Shown piece by piece: positions 1,321-8,413 of a stretch of DNA of 64,000 bases. The notes under the pieces were generated by a model that searched no databases, was not told where the DNA came from, and worked only from the letters and a program-made list of their open reading frames with translations. The translations under genes and the position numbers were made by a program. Positions within the stretch are counted from its first letter, which is position 1, and every line of letters begins with the position of its first letter. The DNA comes from Natronomonas salsuginis (lineage in GTDB: Archaea; Halobacteriota; Halobacteria; Halobacteriales; Haloarculaceae). Location: contig NZ_QKNX01000001.1 of the NCBI RefSeq assembly GCF_005239135.1, positions 558,001 through 622,000 of the forward strand, written 5' to 3'.

Positions 1321-2409
1321 TTAGTCGGCGCGATCCAACAGCGCGCGATAGCGCCGGCCGGCCGGTCCGTCGGCCTCGATCGCCGCCTCGATTCGCGGCG
1401 AGAGCCACGCTTCGGAGACGTATCGCTCGTGGACGGGCAAGCGCTCGGAGAGCGGAACGCCGGCCGTCTCGGCGATATCCTCGAGTTCCCGAAGCGCCGG
1501 CCAGGCGTACTCGGGGTTGATATGGTCGTCAGTGACCGGCGACACGCCGCCGAAGTCGTCGACGCCGCAGTCGAGAAGGTCTTCGACCGGCGCGAGGTTC
1601 GGCGGCGACTGGATGCTGATCTCCGGGGGCAGCGCGACCCGAGCCATGGCCGTCACGCGACGAATCGTTTCGAGGTCGGGCGAGTCCTCGCGCCACCGCT
1701 CGTTCTGGACGACCGGCTGGACGATGATCTCCTGGACGTGCCCGTAGCGTTCGTGCAGTTCCCGAATCGCGAGCAGGCTTTCCGCGCGGTCGCGCATCGT
1801 CTCGCCGATCCCGACGAGGATCCCCGTCGTGAAGGGCATCCCCAACTCGCCGGCCGTCGCGATCGTTGCGAGCCGCTGTCCCGGATCCTTCGCGCGCGGG
1901 CCGCCGTGGGCTTGCACCTCGGCGGTTGTTTCGAGCATGACGCCCATCGAGGCGTTCACGTCGGCGACGAGTTCCATCTGCCAGCGGGTCTGATCGCCGG
2001 GGTTCGAGTGCGGGAGGAGTCCGCACTCGAGGGCGATTTCGCACGCCTCCCGGAGATACGAGTGGATCGAATCGTGCCCCCACTCCGAGAGCTGGTCGTG
2101 AACCTCGGTGTAGCGATCGTCGGGATCGTCACCGAAGGTGAAAAGCGCCTCCGTGCAGCCGGCAGCCGCGCCCCGCTCGCAGATGTCGCTGATCTCGTCG
2201 GGCGACAACAGCGACGCTGCTCCGGGCGGATCGTAGTAGGTACAGTACGTGCAGGTGTACCGGCACGCGGTCGTCAGCGGGACGAACACGTTTCGCGCGA
2301 AGGAGAGTTCGTCCGCAGGCTCGACCGCCGACGGCGTCACGTCTACCAACCGATCCACGTCCGCCGTCGGAATCTCGATATCGACCCCGTAGTCCTCCGC
2401 GCCAAACAC
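1321..2409 (-). CDS. cofG: CofG, F420 FO-synthase radical-SAM subunit
   Basis: CofG works with CofH to form FO from a tyrosine-derived adduct and the ribitylaminouracil intermediate of flavin synthesis. The radical-SAM cluster motif CX3CX2C is visible at residues 49-56 (CRYTCTYC), followed by the family-typical YYDPPG. The 362-residue length fits stand-alone archaeal CofG; bacteria and algae often have fused FbiC. The start is GTG at 2409; no better start lies nearby. It is the last gene of the minus-strand cetZ-3075-cofC-cofG run, with 57 bp to the cofC stop, so probably co-transcribed. Confidence 0.95.
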   Translation of the reverse strand: MFGAEDYGVDIEIPTADVDRLVDVTPSAVEPADELSFARNVFVPLTTACRYTCTYCTYYDPPGAASLLSPDEISDICERGAAAGCTEALFTFGDDPDDRYTEVHDQLSEWGHDSIHSYLREACEIALECGLLPHSNPGDQTRWQMELVADVNASMGVMLETTAEVQAHGGPRAKDPGQRLATIATAGELGMPFTTGILVGIGETMRDRAESLLAIRELHERYGHVQEIIVQPVVQNERWREDSPDLETIRRVTAMARVALPPEISIQSPPNLAPVEDLLDCGVDDFGGVSPVTDDHINPEYAWPALRELEDIAETAGVPLSERLPVHERYVSEAWLSPRIEAAIEADGPAGRRYRALLDRAD

Positions 2410-2466: not shown

Positions 2467-3075
2467 CTACCGCGCTTGGCGGCGAACGGTTACGCGTCCG
2501 TCGGGGGTCGAGAGTTCGAAGCCGGCTGATCGGAGCCACTCGACGGATTCACCGGAGCCGTGTAACAACAGTTCGGCGAGATCCTCGGGTTCGTCGATGT
2601 CGACGGCGAGCCGAAACGAGTCGACCGCCGTCGCCTCGACGCCGACTTCTGACGCGATGCGCCGGTGATCGGCCACTGAGGCACCGTGATAATCGGTGTG
2701 AAAGTCTGGCTCCCGGACGACGAGCGCGTTCGTCCCGCCGCCGAGTCCCGGTGCGATAACGACCTCGCCCTCGGCTCCGAAGAGCCGCGAGAGCGCGTCC
2801 GGCGTCGCGAGCGCGAGGTCGGCCATGACGACCGCGACGGGGGGGTCCAGTCGGTCGTTGACCGCGGCGGTCAACGGTCGATCGTCGACGACGACCGGCC
2901 ATTCGCTGTCGATCGGGTCCGTCGAGAGCACCGTCGGCGACGCGTCGGTCGCATCGATCGCAGAACAGACATCGCGGAGCATCGTGCGGGCGAATTCGAC
3001 TCGTTCGTCCGGTTCGAGAACGGTCGCGAGTCGCGTCTTCGGCTCGCGGGCCGCGAACGGGACGAGGGCGTCCAT
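2467..3075 (-). CDS. cofC: CofC, 2-phospho-L-lactate guanylyltransferase
   Basis: CofC activates 2-phospholactate (or a related C3 acid) with GTP to give the dinucleotide donor that is attached to FO by CofD. The protein is about 202 residues and starts [17 protein letters not shown], the usual CofC start including the nucleotide-binding Lys-Thr-Arg segment. A GTG three bases upstream (3078) is possible, but the ATG at 3075 overlaps the stop of the upstream gene by one base (TGATG), the usual translational coupling, so I use the ATG. cofG follows after 57 bp. Confidence 0.93.
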
Positions 3076-3836
3076 CACCGGAGCCGGCTCGGTCCCTGCT
3101 GTCTGGATTTGTACACCCAGTAGCCGCCCCCGAGGAGAAGCGCCAGGACGATCACGGCACCGAGACCGAGGAGCGCGTTCCGGACGAGTTGACTCTGTGA
3201 TGCCTCGCCTTGGGCCCGTTCGGCGTTGTTGATCGCGTTCTCGAAGTTCCCGCTCTCGTACGCGGAGATCGAGCTGTCGAGCGAGGATTGCGCTTCGTCC
3301 GATCCCGATCCCTCGACGGCGTCTCGCGCGTTGTCGATCGCGTTTCGCGCGTCGTCACTCTCTTGGGTGAAGTGGTGACTCTCATGGGAGTCGACCGGCT
3401 GTTCGGTGCCACCCTCGCGCTCCAGCGTGAACGCGGCGGCGGTGAACCGGTCCGGCGGATCGTAGCTGAAGTTCTCGATCTCGGGTGTCGTCCCGGTAAC
3501 GCGGACCTCGATTCGGGCCGTTCCGTCGTCGATGTCAACCGATTGGGTCGCGTTCTGGCCGTCGATATCCTCGCGAGAGAGCTCGTCGTCGGCCTGGTTG
3601 TACTGTCTGATCGTCCACGTTGCGTTCTCGAGTTCCGTGCTCGAAACGAGCGTCCACCGTTCGAACTCGTCGAACAGTTCGGTTACTTCGAACGTCGCCT
3701 CGAAATCGGATCCGACTTCCGATTCCTCGGGAAGGTCGGTTGGCTCGCTCTGGACTGCCGCCGCCGGACCGGCGAACAGCGCGCTACACAACAGCACGGC
3801 AAAGAGAACGACGGCAAAAGACTTCCTACTGCTCAT
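3075..3836 (-). CDS. Secreted protein with C-terminal membrane anchor, between cetZ and cofC
   Basis: I do not recognise a named family. The 253-residue protein has an N-terminal signal peptide (residues 1-28, ending GPAAAVQ), an acidic extracellular domain of about 180 residues rich in beta-type sequence, a helical region around residues 160-210 ([28 protein letters not shown]), one C-terminal transmembrane helix (about 216-238) and a short basic tail ([12 protein letters not shown]). The helical part resembles a coiled stalk just outside the membrane. It overlaps the 3' end of cetZ by 11 bp and cofC by one base, so all three are translationally coupled. A role linking CetZ to the envelope is only an inference from position. 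Confidence 0.85.
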
Positions 3837-5001
3837 TGTCGCCGTATTCCAAGAGGTCCTCTAAATCACCTTCGCTCTGTGACTGGAGTTCCTTGCGCCG
3901 CTCTTCGGCCTCAATCGCCATCCGCTGCATCTCCTTGACGCGCGGCACGTCGGTGACGCCGGCCAAGACGACGATCGCGGCGACCTTCTGCTCGTTGGGG
4001 AGCGGGTAATCTCCGGCCCGAACCTCCATGCATTGGGTCTGGTCTTCGAGCCACTTGCGCGCTTTATCGATCCCCTTCCGGTTGAGCGCCTCCGGCGGTC
4101 CCGAAACTAACAGGAGCGCCCGCTCGGTGCTGTCGACCTCGCACTGAAGCGTCAGCTTCCCGAGCGTCGCCTTCCGGACGAGCGAGGTGATCCGATTCGT
4201 CGCATCGCCCGGCGTGGCAAAGCCGTTGTCCTCGTTTCGGCCGCGGAGTCGGTCGAGCAGCCCCTTGCTCTCGTTGTGGGGATCGACGAGTTCGCTCGCG
4301 TAACCGACGCTCGTGATCCCGTGGTCACCGAGCGTGTTGATTATCTCGGAGGCGTCGACGACGCTTTCGGCGACGTTGTCGCCGAGCGCCTCGACCTCGC
4401 CGGCCGAGAAGAGGGCTCCGAATCGGGTGATGATTTCGTCGTTGATCTCCGAGTATCCCTGGTCGAGACTCTCACCCCCCGTTTTGAACGCATCGTTGTC
4501 GAACGTCAACAGATTGTCGACCGATCCGGCGAAACGCTGGAACGACCGGGCGGCGTTGCGGTTGTAGATGCCCCCTTCATCCCGGCTCGGGAGAATCCCG
4601 AGGCCGTATACCGGTTCGACGTAGAGTCGTTGGAGATGCTCGGCCAGCACGGGCGCGCCGCCGCTGCCGGTCCCACCGCCGAGCCCGGCGATGATGAGAA
4701 ACGCGTCGATCTCGCTCGAGATCATTCGATCGATCGCGGTCTGGATCTCCTCGATGTCCTCGGTCGCGCACTCCTCTCCGAGTTCAGGCTCAGTACCCGC
4801 GCCGTGTCCTTTCACCACCGATTGGCCGATGAGCACCCGGTTTTCGTTCGGTACGTAGTCGAGACCCATCAGATCCGCCTTCGCCGAGTTGACCGCAACG
4901 GCGTGGCCGATGATCCCGGTCCCTCGGCTGGAATCGTACTCGAGGAACCGGTCGAGAACCTTCCCGCCGGCCTGCCCGAAGCCGATCATTGCAAGTTTCA
5001 T
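3826..5001 (-). CDS. cetZ: CetZ, archaeal tubulin/FtsZ-superfamily GTPase
   Basis: CetZ proteins are cytoskeletal GTPases that set cell shape in haloarchaea (CetZ1 controls rod formation and motility in Haloferax volcanii). The 391-residue protein has the N-terminal GFGQAGG loop (residues 7-13), the tubulin signature GGGTGSG at 108-114 and the FLIIAGLGGG lead-in typical of CetZ rather than FtsZ1/2. From memory, CetZ1 of Haloferax also lies next to cofC, which makes this the probable CetZ1 orthologue; phylogeny would be needed to be sure. A TATA-like CTTATC lies about 35 bp upstream of the ATG. It heads the operon with the anchored secreted protein, cofC and cofG. Confidence 0.92.
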   Translation of the reverse strand: MKLAMIGFGQAGGKVLDRFLEYDSSRGTGIIGHAVAVNSAKADLMGLDYVPNENRVLIGQSVVKGHGAGTEPELGEECATEDIEEIQTAIDRMISSEIDAFLIIAGLGGGTGSGGAPVLAEHLQRLYVEPVYGLGILPSRDEGGIYNRNAARSFQRFAGSVDNLLTFDNDAFKTGGESLDQGYSEINDEIITRFGALFSAGEVEALGDNVAESVVDASEIINTLGDHGITSVGYASELVDPHNESKGLLDRLRGRNEDNGFATPGDATNRITSLVRKATLGKLTLQCEVDSTERALLLVSGPPEALNRKGIDKARKWLEDQTQCMEVRAGDYPLPNEQKVAAIVVLAGVTDVPRVKEMQRMAIEAEERRKELQSQSEGDLEDLLEYGDNEQ

Positions 5002-5097: not shown

Positions 5098-6063
5098 TCA
5101 CTCGGCAGCGCTGTCCGCAAGGTATGCGGCCAGCGTCAGGAGTTCACCCGGAGCGACGCCGAAGGCGGTCACGTCGTTTTCGTCGACGGTGTTATCGAAC
5201 TTCAACGATCGGTACTGGTCAGATCCCATTCGCGGAACTCCAGGGAGCGCATCGAGCACCGAGGCGGGGACGAAATCGAGCGATCTGAGGCCGACCGATG
5301 CGATCGGCATCGGGATCGAGACGACTTCGGCCGATCGACCGTCCGCACCGTGTGCGAGTTCGGCGATCTCGGCGAGCGTCAGGACCTCCGGGCCGCCGAT
5401 CTCGTAGACGTGGCCGACGTGCGGATTCCCGCCGGTTGCGCCGTCGCTTCGATCCGCGCCCTGCTCACCACCGTCGACGGCATCGGCGAGCATGGGGACG
5501 ATATCGCCGATCCAGATCGGTTGAAACCGGGTTTTACCGCCGCCGGGGAGCGGGGTGAGGTAGGGAAGGGCGAGCTGTTTCGTGTACCGGAGGAACTCGC
5601 CACCGTCGCCGAAGACGACCGAGGGGCGAAAGATGACCCACTCCAGATCCGACTCGCGAACGATTCCCTCCGCCAACCCCTTCGCACGGATCGACGCCGT
5701 CTCGCCGTTCGGATCAGCGCCGAGCGCGCTCATCTGGACGAGCAGCCCGACGCCGTGTTCTTCGGCCGCGCGGACGACGTTCGCCGTGCCCTCCTCGTGA
5801 ACGCGGTAGTGCATCTCGTTCCCGCCCGAGGGCCGAAACAGCGGCGACAGCGCGACGAGGTTGACGACCGCGTCCTGTCCCTCAAAAGCCCCCTCGATCG
5901 AGTCGTATGCGGTCACGTCGCCCATCGCCGTTCGAACGTCCGCGGGAAGGGTATCGTCCTCCGGCGACCGCGACAGCGCCGTCACCTCGTGGCCGCGTTC
6001 GTGGAGTTCCCGACAGAGATGCGCACCGATGAATCCGGTTCCGCCGACGACCAGTACTCGCAT
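5098..6063 (-). CDS. NAD-dependent epimerase, complex I NDUFA9-like family
   Basis: This is an atypical short-chain dehydrogenase with the Rossmann dinucleotide motif GGTGFIG at residues 7-13. Its NVVRAAEEHGVGLLVQMSALGA strand and FRPSVVFGDGGEF segment are typical of the NDUFA9-like group found widely in haloarchaea. About 321 residues from the ATG at 6063; an ATG at 6072 (MST before MRVLVVGG) is equally possible. Frames further upstream are open but unlike the family. The substrate is unknown. It is divergent from the thioesterase gene at 6191, with about 127 bp between them. Confidence 0.85.
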   Translation of the reverse strand: MRVLVVGGTGFIGAHLCRELHERGHEVTALSRSPEDDTLPADVRTAMGDVTAYDSIEGAFEGQDAVVNLVALSPLFRPSGGNEMHYRVHEEGTANVVRAAEEHGVGLLVQMSALGADPNGETASIRAKGLAEGIVRESDLEWVIFRPSVVFGDGGEFLRYTKQLALPYLTPLPGGGKTRFQPIWIGDIVPMLADAVDGGEQGADRSDGATGGNPHVGHVYEIGGPEVLTLAEIAELAHGADGRSAEVVSIPMPIASVGLRSLDFVPASVLDALPGVPRMGSDQYRSLKFDNTVDENDVTAFGVAPGELLTLAAYLADSAAE

Positions 6064-6190
6064 AGTGGACATTGGGGCGGTCGCCGTATAAACCATCGTG
6101 GCAGTTCGAGCGGTCGATAGCAGCGGACGGGAACGCACAAAGTTGGCGGTGGACGGGAACCGATACGGTCCGCGGCGGTCGAATCCGGGC

Positions 6191-6619
6191 ATGGATCACT
6201 ACCGGAAGCTCGAACGGATGTACCACGGCTCACGGTGTAACGATCACCTCGACATCGCGCTCTCCGTGACCGATGCCGGCGAGGCCGAAATCCGGTTGGG
6301 CGTCGACGGATCCGACCACCACGCCGCCGGCGGCGTCCACGGCTCGTATTACTTCAAGGCGCTCGACGACGCGACGTTCTTCGCCGCCAACTCGCTCGTC
6401 AAGGACGTGTTCGTGCTGACGACCGACGTTCACCTCCAGCTCACCCAGCCGGTCACCGAGGGCGACCTCGTCGCGGAGGCGACTGTGGTCAACGATCACC
6501 CGAAGCAGCTCATCGCCGACGGCGTTCTCTACGACGACGAGGGAACCCAACTGGCTCGCGGGACCGGTACGTTCGCGAAAAGCCGCGTCGAACTGGACGC
6601 CGAGATGGGGTACGAATAA
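6191..6619 (+). CDS. PaaI-type hotdog thioesterase
   Basis: A 142-residue hotdog-fold protein. The catalytic-region pattern of PaaI/YigI thioesterases is visible: HHAAGGVHGSYYFKALDDATFFAANS, with the Asp in the long central helix, then LTTDVHLQLTQPVTEGDL and the C-terminal strand ARGTGTFAKS. The start at ATG 6191 (MDHYRKLERMYHG) removes 31 basic, family-unlike residues of the longer open frame. It probably hydrolyses an acyl- or aryl-CoA; the substrate cannot be predicted. Confidence 0.85.
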   Translation: MDHYRKLERMYHGSRCNDHLDIALSVTDAGEAEIRLGVDGSDHHAAGGVHGSYYFKALDDATFFAANSLVKDVFVLTTDVHLQLTQPVTEGDLVAEATVVNDHPKQLIADGVLYDDEGTQLARGTGTFAKSRVELDAEMGYE

Positions 6620-7405: not shown

Positions 7406-8413
7406 ATGAGCCTAAAACCAACGCCGCCGCACGAAGCCAAGAACCGATTCCTCAACGACAAGAAGCCGGGCGTTACCCGGAAGACGCTCAAGAACTACCG
7501 TACCAGTCTCCGGCAGTTCTGCGACTGGCTGGACGACCAGCAACTCACGAACCTGAGCAACCTCGACAGCGAACTCATCCAGCGGTACAAGGAGTTCCGG
7601 CTGTCCAAGGTCAAGGTCATTACGGCACGACAGGATATGATGACCGTCAAGCAGTTCATCGAGTTCTGCGAACACATTGCCGCCGTCCCGCGTGGGATGG
7701 CCGATATGGTTCGGATACCCTCGGTCAGCGAGAACGACGAGATCTGTGACGACCTCCTCACGCGGGATGAGGCGGTCGCTGTACTAGACTTCCTCAACAA
7801 GTACGAGTACGCCAGTAACCGGCACGTCACTCTGCTTGTTCTCTGGAAAACCGGGATGCGAATGAGCGGGCTCCGGGCACTCGATATTGAAGACTTCGAT
7901 GAGGGACGGCCAGCGCTCGAACTTCGCCACCGACCCAACACTGGGACACCACTCAAGAACAAGGAGAGGGGCGAGCGGGACGTTCTCATCACACCCGAGA
8001 CCGCTGGTATTCTCTCCGACTACATCAAGCAGACTCGCCCAGACGTGACAGACGAACACGGCAGGAAGCCGCTCCTCGCCTCACAGAACGGGCGCGCCGT
8101 GGAGACAACCATCCAGCGGTACGTGTACACCGCCACCCGTCCCTGCTACTACAACGGCGGGAACTGCCCGTTTGACCGGAATCCCGAAGAGTGCGAGGCC
8201 ATGTCATGGAATGGCTCGTGCAAGTGTCCGGGCTCGGTCAGCCCGCACGCCCTTCGTCGGGGCTATGTCACGGCGGCGCGGAACGCAGGACAGCCCAAGG
8301 ACGTAACAGGAGAACGGGTCAATATGAGTGGAAAGGTACTAGAAAAACACTACGACAAGGGGACAAGTGCAGAGAAGGCGAATAGGAGAAAGGATTTTCT
8401 CAAAGACATATGA
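7406..8413 (+). CDS. Tyrosine recombinase (integrase) of the integrative element
   Basis: A 335-residue site-specific recombinase. Residues 5-105 form the SAM-like core-binding domain (TLKNYRTSLRQFCDWL). The catalytic domain shows Arg152 (TGMRMSGLRALD), His281 and Arg284 (SPHALRRGYVT) and the probable nucleophile Tyr316 (VLEKHYDKG), followed by a basic tail. Between them is a cysteine cluster of the form CX6CX7CX9CXC (about residues 249-275), seen in many haloarchaeal integrases and likely metal-binding. The ATG at 7406 lies 70 bp inside the left att copy, the standard place for an integrase acting on a tRNA site. All catalytic residues are present, so it may be active. Confidence 0.95.
   Translation: MSLKPTPPHEAKNRFLNDKKPGVTRKTLKNYRTSLRQFCDWLDDQQLTNLSNLDSELIQRYKEFRLSKVKVITARQDMMTVKQFIEFCEHIAAVPRGMADMVRIPSVSENDEICDDLLTRDEAVAVLDFLNKYEYASNRHVTLLVLWKTGMRMSGLRALDIEDFDEGRPALELRHRPNTGTPLKNKERGERDVLITPETAGILSDYIKQTRPDVTDEHGRKPLLASQNGRAVETTIQRYVYTATRPCYYNGGNCPFDRNPEECEAMSWNGSCKCPGSVSPHALRRGYVTAARNAGQPKDVTGERVNMSGKVLEKHYDKGTSAEKANRRKDFLKDI

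Follow-up and report, generated by a model that had tools for sequence, protein, structure and literature searches.

What is a gene for a predicted membrane protein doing between a gene of the tubulin family and a gene of coenzyme F420 metabolism, and is its product a partner of either? The question is raised by a locus of Natronomonas salsuginis contained in the window analysed here, a stretch of 64,000 nucleotides (nt; positions 558,001 to 622,000 of contig NZ_QKNX01000001.1), in which cetZ, a gene for a protein of 253 amino acids (aa) that we call X, and cofC follow one another in the same direction, all three encoded by the minus strand. An earlier reading of the sequence (the original prediction) described overlaps of 11 nt between cetZ and X and of 1 nt between X and cofC, both of which are exact, and took X as a candidate for an unrecognised envelope partner of CetZ. 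This candidacy is supported, at the level of sequence, by the recurrence of the cetZ-X pair across the phylum without cofC and by a predicted cytosolic tail that is the best conserved part of the protein. The reading that we favour, and hold to be fairly probable, is that X is a dedicated transmembrane partner of the adjacent CetZ, which it would tether to the membrane or envelope, probably through this tail.

Homologues of X were detected in 200 of the 391 genomes of the haloarchaeal class when the window protein was used as query (E ≤ 1e-3). In addition, the ratio of nonsynonymous to synonymous substitution rates (dN/dS) was 0.14–0.44 in 11 of 12 pairs and 0.89 in the remaining one. Both results evidenced that X is a genuine gene, as opposed to an open reading frame (ORF) arising by chance. 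A search with profile A1 at E ≤ 0.01 gave 207 class genomes, the seven additional matches (G199, G204, G241, G250, G335, G361 and G382; E 3.6e-7 to 0.009) being weak; the two of them that were fetched, G199 and G335, were confined to the stalk and transmembrane part, and none of the seven was counted as X.

Inspection of 78 class loci (the 30 best matches of the window-protein search, eight selected from the profile matches and 40 chosen to cover genera) placed X directly behind cetZ in 74 of them, the window included, and these 74 span 40 genera and 8 families. The length of the overlap between both genes follows lineage: 23 nt in 35 pairs, 17 in 13, 11 in ten, 32 in six and 14 in one, with a short gap instead of an overlap in the other nine, the X starts having been picked by a rule of our own. 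In genus g44 (L018-L027, L030) the start chosen by this rule is TTG and, unlike in most other genera, CofG was not found in the 1.5-kb flank behind X.

The same pair was found beyond haloarchaea. A profile of 72 haloarchaeal X sequences (alignment A2, built from the 77 non-remnant class sequences, with L007 represented by the X of the window and the near copies L020, L023, L024, L026 and L030 dropped) was compared with 294 genomes of the phylum and matched 79 of them, 51 lying outside the class and giving mostly weak matches. Eighteen of these 51 were fetched because of long matches or frames of similar length (270–390 aa); many of the matches in the other 33 are limited to the stalk part of a longer protein. 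In all 17 fetched loci with upstream sequence, X directly followed a cetZ of the same orientation; the contig of the remaining locus stops 91 nt before X. Since the profile is blind to gene order and the loci were chosen by match length, this adjacency constitutes independent evidence. Comparison of two remote groups with haloarchaeal X using hhalign gave homology probabilities of 99.5% and 99.1%. Furthermore, the AlphaFold2 model of a remote protein (L145; 25 sequences; predicted local distance difference test score, pLDDT, 89.6) presented the same order as that of the window protein, that is, an N-terminal helix, a beta-sandwich and three helices, of which the last crosses the membrane and leads to the tail. 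One match of 36 residues lay in a Magnetococcales metagenome-assembled genome (L006).

The adjacency was also followed from the side of cetZ in a block of 80 non-haloarchaeal genomes, consecutive in our numbering (G391-G470). CetZ was matched at E ≤ 1e-20 in 44 of them, of which 42 were full length (the partial match of G435 and the weak one of G417 being excluded) and 41 testable, because only 150 nt follow cetZ in G451. An X-like gene, defined as a frame of 230 aa or more that has a hydrophobic segment at either terminus and starts between −60 and +100 nt (G420 and G440 were added from a separate inspection), comes next after cetZ in 34 of the 41. Family f15 contributes 4 of its 11 testable genomes, and the other families 30 of 30. 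Among the 36 CetZ-less genomes of the block there were four short partial X matches and a lone long one, at a contig end (G452). Both genomes studied of family f23 carry two full cetZ genes and have X behind one of them; the second copies (L196, L197) have a PLF-type ending and no X behind.

No CofC match was found in the 18 remote loci, about 4 kb on each side where the contig allows. This result bears on a different reading of the locus, in which X takes part in coenzyme F420 metabolism together with cofC and cofG and cetZ is a bystander. The 1-nt overlap of X and cofC in the window and the location of cofC at most 81 nt downstream in 73 of the 74 X loci with CetZ would agree with it. However, 29 of the 30 loci without X have cofC, as do all 12 CetZ-less genomes that were searched, and it is not obvious what a membrane protein that is exported would do in the synthesis of a cofactor in the cytosol. 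Membership of X in the F420 pathway was consequently rejected, as cofC is kept without X and the remote X loci lack a CofC match; we regard it as very improbable. The X-less panel (30 genomes of 29 genera, chosen by us) had no X-like gene after cetZ1, and cofC started within about 180 nt of cetZ1 in 26 of them and at 0.2–0.3 kb in L065 and L059. The distance was 0.9 kb in L066, whereas the 1.5 kb searched in L063 contained no cofC. With cofC at most 0.3 kb from cetZ1 in 28 of the 30, the F420 linkage does not belong to the cetZ-X module. The coupling of CetZ with F420 genes that the original prediction had found odd thus stands for haloarchaea, where cofC adjoins cetZ1, and does not extend to the CetZ-X module of the remote loci; the linkage of cetZ-X to F420 genes appears to be haloarchaeal only.

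The second element that points to CetZ is the C-terminal tail of X. Among five regions of the protein, the tail (residues 241-253) had the highest mean conservation, 0.61 vs. 0.52 for the sandwich, in 69 haloarchaeal sequences (those of A2 except three CetZ-less ones). In haloarchaea the last residues of X are YDKLG or a similar sequence, with Leu as the last or last-but-one residue in 73 of 74 loci with CetZ; at the three places before this Leu, Tyr was found in 45, Asp in 50 and Lys or Arg in 69 of the 73. The window genus has a divergent, PSRL-like form. Thirteen remote proteins (families f14, f21, f23 and f28-f30; 27–89% identity to the first) share an invariant WDELG end, which accounts for 5 of the 14 invariant columns of their alignment (A4). 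The tails of the other remote groups are WDRLG, WDELK, DKLG, RWERL or, in family f16, RKRG[IV]Y, which has no Leu. A conserved cytosolic peptide on an otherwise external protein implies a cytosolic partner and, of the two neighbours tested, CetZ recurs and CofC does not.

The placement of this tail in the cytosol is a prediction. The AlphaFold2 model of X (72-sequence alignment, mean pLDDT 93) contains a signal helix at 6-19, beta-strands within 29-156 and helices at 158-175, 180-194 and 198-246, followed by the tail, and the last helix includes the hydrophobic transmembrane segment (about 221-242). The signal peptide, outer domain, stalk, transmembrane helix and basic tail originally described agree with this model, the signal peptide having been assigned from the model and from conservation and not from a dedicated predictor. 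The window protein has the architecture proposed for the family, which is based on two modelled members and a comparison of tails, and its own tail is the divergent PSRLR form. Neither Pfam nor NCBIfam gave a model above cut-off for X, nine remote homologues matched no Pfam family, and nothing convincing was obtained among PDB sequences (best E 0.037). Fold searches with the ectodomain returned many unrelated immunoglobulin-like (Ig-like) matches with similar scores (VIA Z from 9.3 to 6.8 across unrelated proteins, the best over 121 residues), and the best Foldseek match of X had an E of 1.4e-6 at a template modelling (TM) score of 0.30. As this is a crowd of unrelated Ig-like domains, in which no one match stood clear of the rest in the way that placement in a known Ig-like adhesin or pilin family would require, the fold tells little about function.

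Genomes without CetZ were informative about another explanation, namely that X acts in the envelope, shares expression with cetZ for reasons of timing and never touches CetZ. No match to the CetZ C-terminal domain was found in any of the eight sampled genomes of genus g37, three of which retain X, flanked by nolA and cofC. The profile detected no X in the remaining five; in four of them nolA adjoins cofC, leaving no space for X. In L122, an X-less g37 locus, there is no nolA in the stretch. The three retained proteins keep their ectodomain, with a dN/dS of 0.22 for one pair and 0.38 for another. This purifying selection in the absence of CetZ, as well as the existence of all four locus forms (cetZ-X-cofC, cetZ-cofC, nolA-X-cofC and nolA-cofC), speaks for co-expression without contact. 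Nevertheless, the tails of these three proteins end in SWRDR or QWSDR, so that the motif is lost, vs. a Leu kept in nearly all loci with CetZ. An external protein has no need of a cytosolic tail, and yet the tail is its best conserved region and is degenerate in these genomes; moreover, X stays next to cetZ throughout the phylum in loci where no cofC was found nearby. For this reason an X that never meets CetZ seems improbable to us. The three genomes belong to one genus and represent at best one or two events.

A truncated X was also found in G316 (L069; Haloquadratum-like by our guess). A remnant that we read as transposon-like occupies the place where cetZ is expected, a single deletion is also apparent, and the X remnant has one in-frame TAG and still ends in NKLR. 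As cetZ and the 5' part of X were apparently removed together, it was rejected as an independent case of X decay without CetZ. The cofC of this locus was read in two pieces by the search. In another genome (L120, G215:C4:250084-250461), the only CetZ match, to the C-terminal domain, contains one in-frame TAA and is possibly a decayed gene.

The distribution of X within the class has to be set against these data. CetZ was detected at E ≤ 1e-60 in 365 of the 391 class genomes: 196 have both CetZ and X, 169 have CetZ without detectable X, and four (G208, G249, G255 and G316) have X without CetZ. Conservation of the order cetZ-X-cofC across haloarchaea, which the original prediction had named as a check, was found in nearly all X loci inspected and not for the class as a whole. 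The 169 of 365 CetZ-bearing genomes without detectable X come near to the absence from most cetZ-cofC loci that was to refute the candidate, so X is not obligatory for CetZ1. The distribution of X on a tree of 104 CetZ1-locus proteins requires at least 10 changes, or 2 when strongly supported branches alone are counted; X therefore changed more than once, in a count that does not separate gain from loss.

This distribution is one argument for a third alternative, in which X is a sensor or regulator whose ectodomain reads the envelope (S-layer, glycan or stress) and whose tail relays the signal either to the assembly of CetZ or to a different protein of the cytosol, for example a MinD, CetZ being located at the membrane by other means. 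A tail of about 11 residues is small for bearing a load, and minD2 is reported to affect CetZ1 localisation in Haloferax volcanii (PMC11621097). On the other hand, among the neighbours tested at remote loci (CetZ and CofC), the one that recurs is cetZ itself. We consider a sensor unlikely, though less so than an X that does not contact CetZ at all; tethering and sensing are not separable by sequence.

Several facts weigh against X as a dedicated partner of CetZ. First of all, since 169 of the CetZ-bearing class genomes do without a detectable X, CetZ1 can work in its absence. The seven testable f15 genomes without X have an unrelated gene or nothing recognisable behind cetZ, and the f15 X-like proteins resemble haloarchaeal X only weakly (hhalign 93.9%, vs. 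99.8% with the other remote group; E 0.02 to 2.5e-5 with the haloarchaeal profile). Some remote X-like genes were called by architecture with a poor profile score (L188, E 0.054), and the survey of remote neighbours covered CetZ and CofC. The retention of X under a dN/dS of 0.22 without CetZ suggests that the ectodomain has some CetZ-independent role. In addition, the CetZ C-terminal motif [LIV]x[PS]L[FIL], found in 63 of 74 loci with X, is kept in 30 of 30 without X, so binding of X alone does not explain it. In four f15 loci without X (L167, L168, L175 and L183), a gene of 182-183 aa overlaps the end of cetZ by 1–4 nt; from our own reading of MRFIVALTGASGQ.., we take it to resemble the flavin prenyltransferase UbiX.

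Rates of change in the locus give further, supporting evidence for the pairing of X with CetZ. In a distance analysis of 72 of the 78 loci (L069, L072-L075 and L098 left out), the partial correlation of X with CetZ, CofC removed, was 0.57 for the 61 loci outside the window genus and 0.63 when each genus was represented by a single locus (both reached in 0 of 2000 permutations), vs. 0.23 (3 of 2000) and 0.13 (264 of 2000), respectively, for X with CofC, CetZ removed. When one locus of the window genus was added, the values were 0.49 for CetZ and 0.26 for CofC. This gap may also count less than it seems, because CofC as a noisier clock could produce it.

The CetZ of the window carries both domains of its family and has a cetZ1-type neighbourhood, with the nolA-type gene upstream and cofC and cofG downstream. 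In the tree of 104 proteins, which includes no CetZ2, the 11 sequences of the window genus form a separate and very long branch, which suggests a strong acceleration of CetZ evolution in this genus. Mean distances within the genus (L007-L017) and to the other loci were 0.44 and 2.11 for CetZ, 0.71 and 1.57 for X, and 0.72 and 1.24 for CofC. The CetZ C-terminal motif is missing in all 11 loci. The co-occurrence in one lineage of this motif loss, the long CetZ branch and the divergent X tail is suggestive only. The idea that a change of the CetZ tail is tied to the presence of X, which came from the ELESLF ends of X-less loci, was rejected because loci with X outside the window genus end alike. 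The window genome has a second CetZ (G000:C4:95628-96797; L002, L121), 62% identical to the first, whose C-terminus, RDLLEYDEE, is also without the PLF-type ending.

If X is indeed the membrane partner of CetZ, both would be co-expressed, the signal peptide would export X and its one C-terminal helix would hold it in the membrane. The beta-sandwich would then be displayed on the helical stalk outside the cell, at the envelope, leaving in the cytosol a peptide of the type [YW]D[KER]L[GK], which is short, basic and strongly conserved. This peptide could dock CetZ or CetZ filaments, directly or via an adaptor; the cytoskeleton would in this way be tethered to the membrane, and the ectodomain would extend the link to the envelope. 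A bolder version, which we put forward tentatively, is that CetZ and X constitute an ancient two-component trans-envelope system, with an outward-facing beta-sandwich receptor and a cytosolic C-terminal pentapeptide that docks CetZ filaments, ancestral to the phylum and repeatedly lost in haloarchaea. So proposed, it would be the tubulin-family counterpart of the link between integrins and the cytoskeleton.

ZipA and other bacterial bitopic FtsZ tethers are single-pass membrane proteins tied to the tubulin-type cytoskeleton, and the binding domain of ZipA is cytosolic. X shares with ZipA the single pass and, by proposal, the tie to such a cytoskeleton, but almost all its mass would be outside the cell. 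SepF is a cytosolic protein, with a SepF domain and without signal peptide or transmembrane segment. X gave no Pfam SepF match and differs from SepF in its predicted type I topology: it would be exported by a signal peptide and cross the membrane once, with a large domain outside and little more than a short peptide in the cytosol. The likeness between the two would lie in the coupling of a tubulin-superfamily filament to the membrane, SepF being the archaeal FtsZ anchor that binds membranes and, as a dimer, the C-terminal domain of FtsZ (PMC8178401). The FtsZl1 operons (PMC2875224) also place a tubulin-like GTPase gene beside genes for membrane or secreted proteins, but with another GTPase family and other partner domains (vWA, kinases).

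No description of X and no named membrane partner of CetZ1 were found in the literature searched, figures, supplements and preprints being outside its scope. Haloferax volcanii, used as a control of the search, has CetZ. HVO_2201 and HVO_2202 correspond to cofG and cofC (PMC8305020). Its cetZ1 is HVO_2204, and HVO_2203 may be X; none of the papers listed in one of the searches mentions HVO_2203. Brown and Duggin (2023; PMC9856176) described a haloarchaeal cetZ1 neighbourhood with nolA, cofC, cofG and cofH, nolA (arCOG03015) being immediately upstream of cetZ1 in most species, and called the significance of the F420 link unknown. Genes were grouped there by arCOG, which could split a family as divergent as X; X may be one of the unnamed grey arCOGs of their Figure 5 or Table S2. 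The proposed partnership fits the biology of CetZ1 in H. volcanii, where, according to PMC11621097 and PMC12186497, it affects rod shape, motility and the polar placement of motility proteins. CetZ1 governs shape and motility in haloarchaea, and the occurrence of the gene pair in many families, with its short conserved peptide predicted to be cytosolic, makes a link to the membrane directly testable. X may be regarded, from comparative data, as a strong candidate link between the CetZ cytoskeleton and the cell surface. It also offers a marker of those among the many CetZ paralogues, in haloarchaea and related archaea, that may have a function in common.

Table 1. Features of the cetZ-X-cofC locus and regions of protein X (window positions).
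Feature	Coordinates	Strand	Evidence
cetZ (CetZ1-locus type), 391 aa	3826..5001	-	Pfam CetZ_C (PF21011) E 1.6e-74 and Tubulin (PF00091) E 3.4e-31, both above cut-off
X, 253-aa predicted type I single-pass membrane protein	3075..3836	-	ORF, translation; homologues
cetZ/X overlap, 11 nt	3826..3836	-	ORF coordinates
X residues 1-28, signal peptide region, end PAAAV	3753..3836	-	AlphaFold2 helix 6-19; A27 nearly invariant
X residues 29-156, predicted extracellular Ig-like beta-sandwich	3369..3752	-	AlphaFold2 strands; generic Ig-like fold matches
X residues 157-213, helical stalk; conserved T157, S160, R164, F198	3198..3368	-	AlphaFold2 helices, conservation
X residues 221-242, predicted transmembrane helix	3111..3176	-	Hydrophobicity; continuous helix 198-246
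X residues 243-253, predicted basic cytosolic tail (counterpart of YDKLG/WDELG tails)	3078..3110	-	Tail conservation
cofC, 2-phospho-L-lactate guanylyltransferase	2467..3075	-	TIGR03552 160.7 bits (cut-off 105)
cofG	1321..2409	-	TIGR03550 446.5 bits
nolA-type NAD-dependent epimerase/dehydratase, upstream neighbour	5098..6072	-	NAD_binding_10/Epimerase

The window lies in contig C1 of a 2.9-Mb genome. The base common to X and cofC belongs to the stop codon of the former and the ATG of the latter (TGATG, 3077-3073), and if cofC began instead at the GTG that precedes this ATG by one codon, the overlap would be of 4 nt. The start codon of the nolA-type gene is uncertain, a longer alternative ORF beginning at 6192. 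A plus-strand CofH gene crosses the edge of the window and has an intact frame of 491 aa in the genome. Finally, about 1.2 kb past the nolA-cetZ-cof block, a plus-strand frame of 335 aa (7406-8413) presents phage-integrase signatures (Phage_int_SAM_1, 27.7 bits, above cut-off; Phage_integrase, 24.8 bits, just under it) and is possibly the edge of an integrated element.

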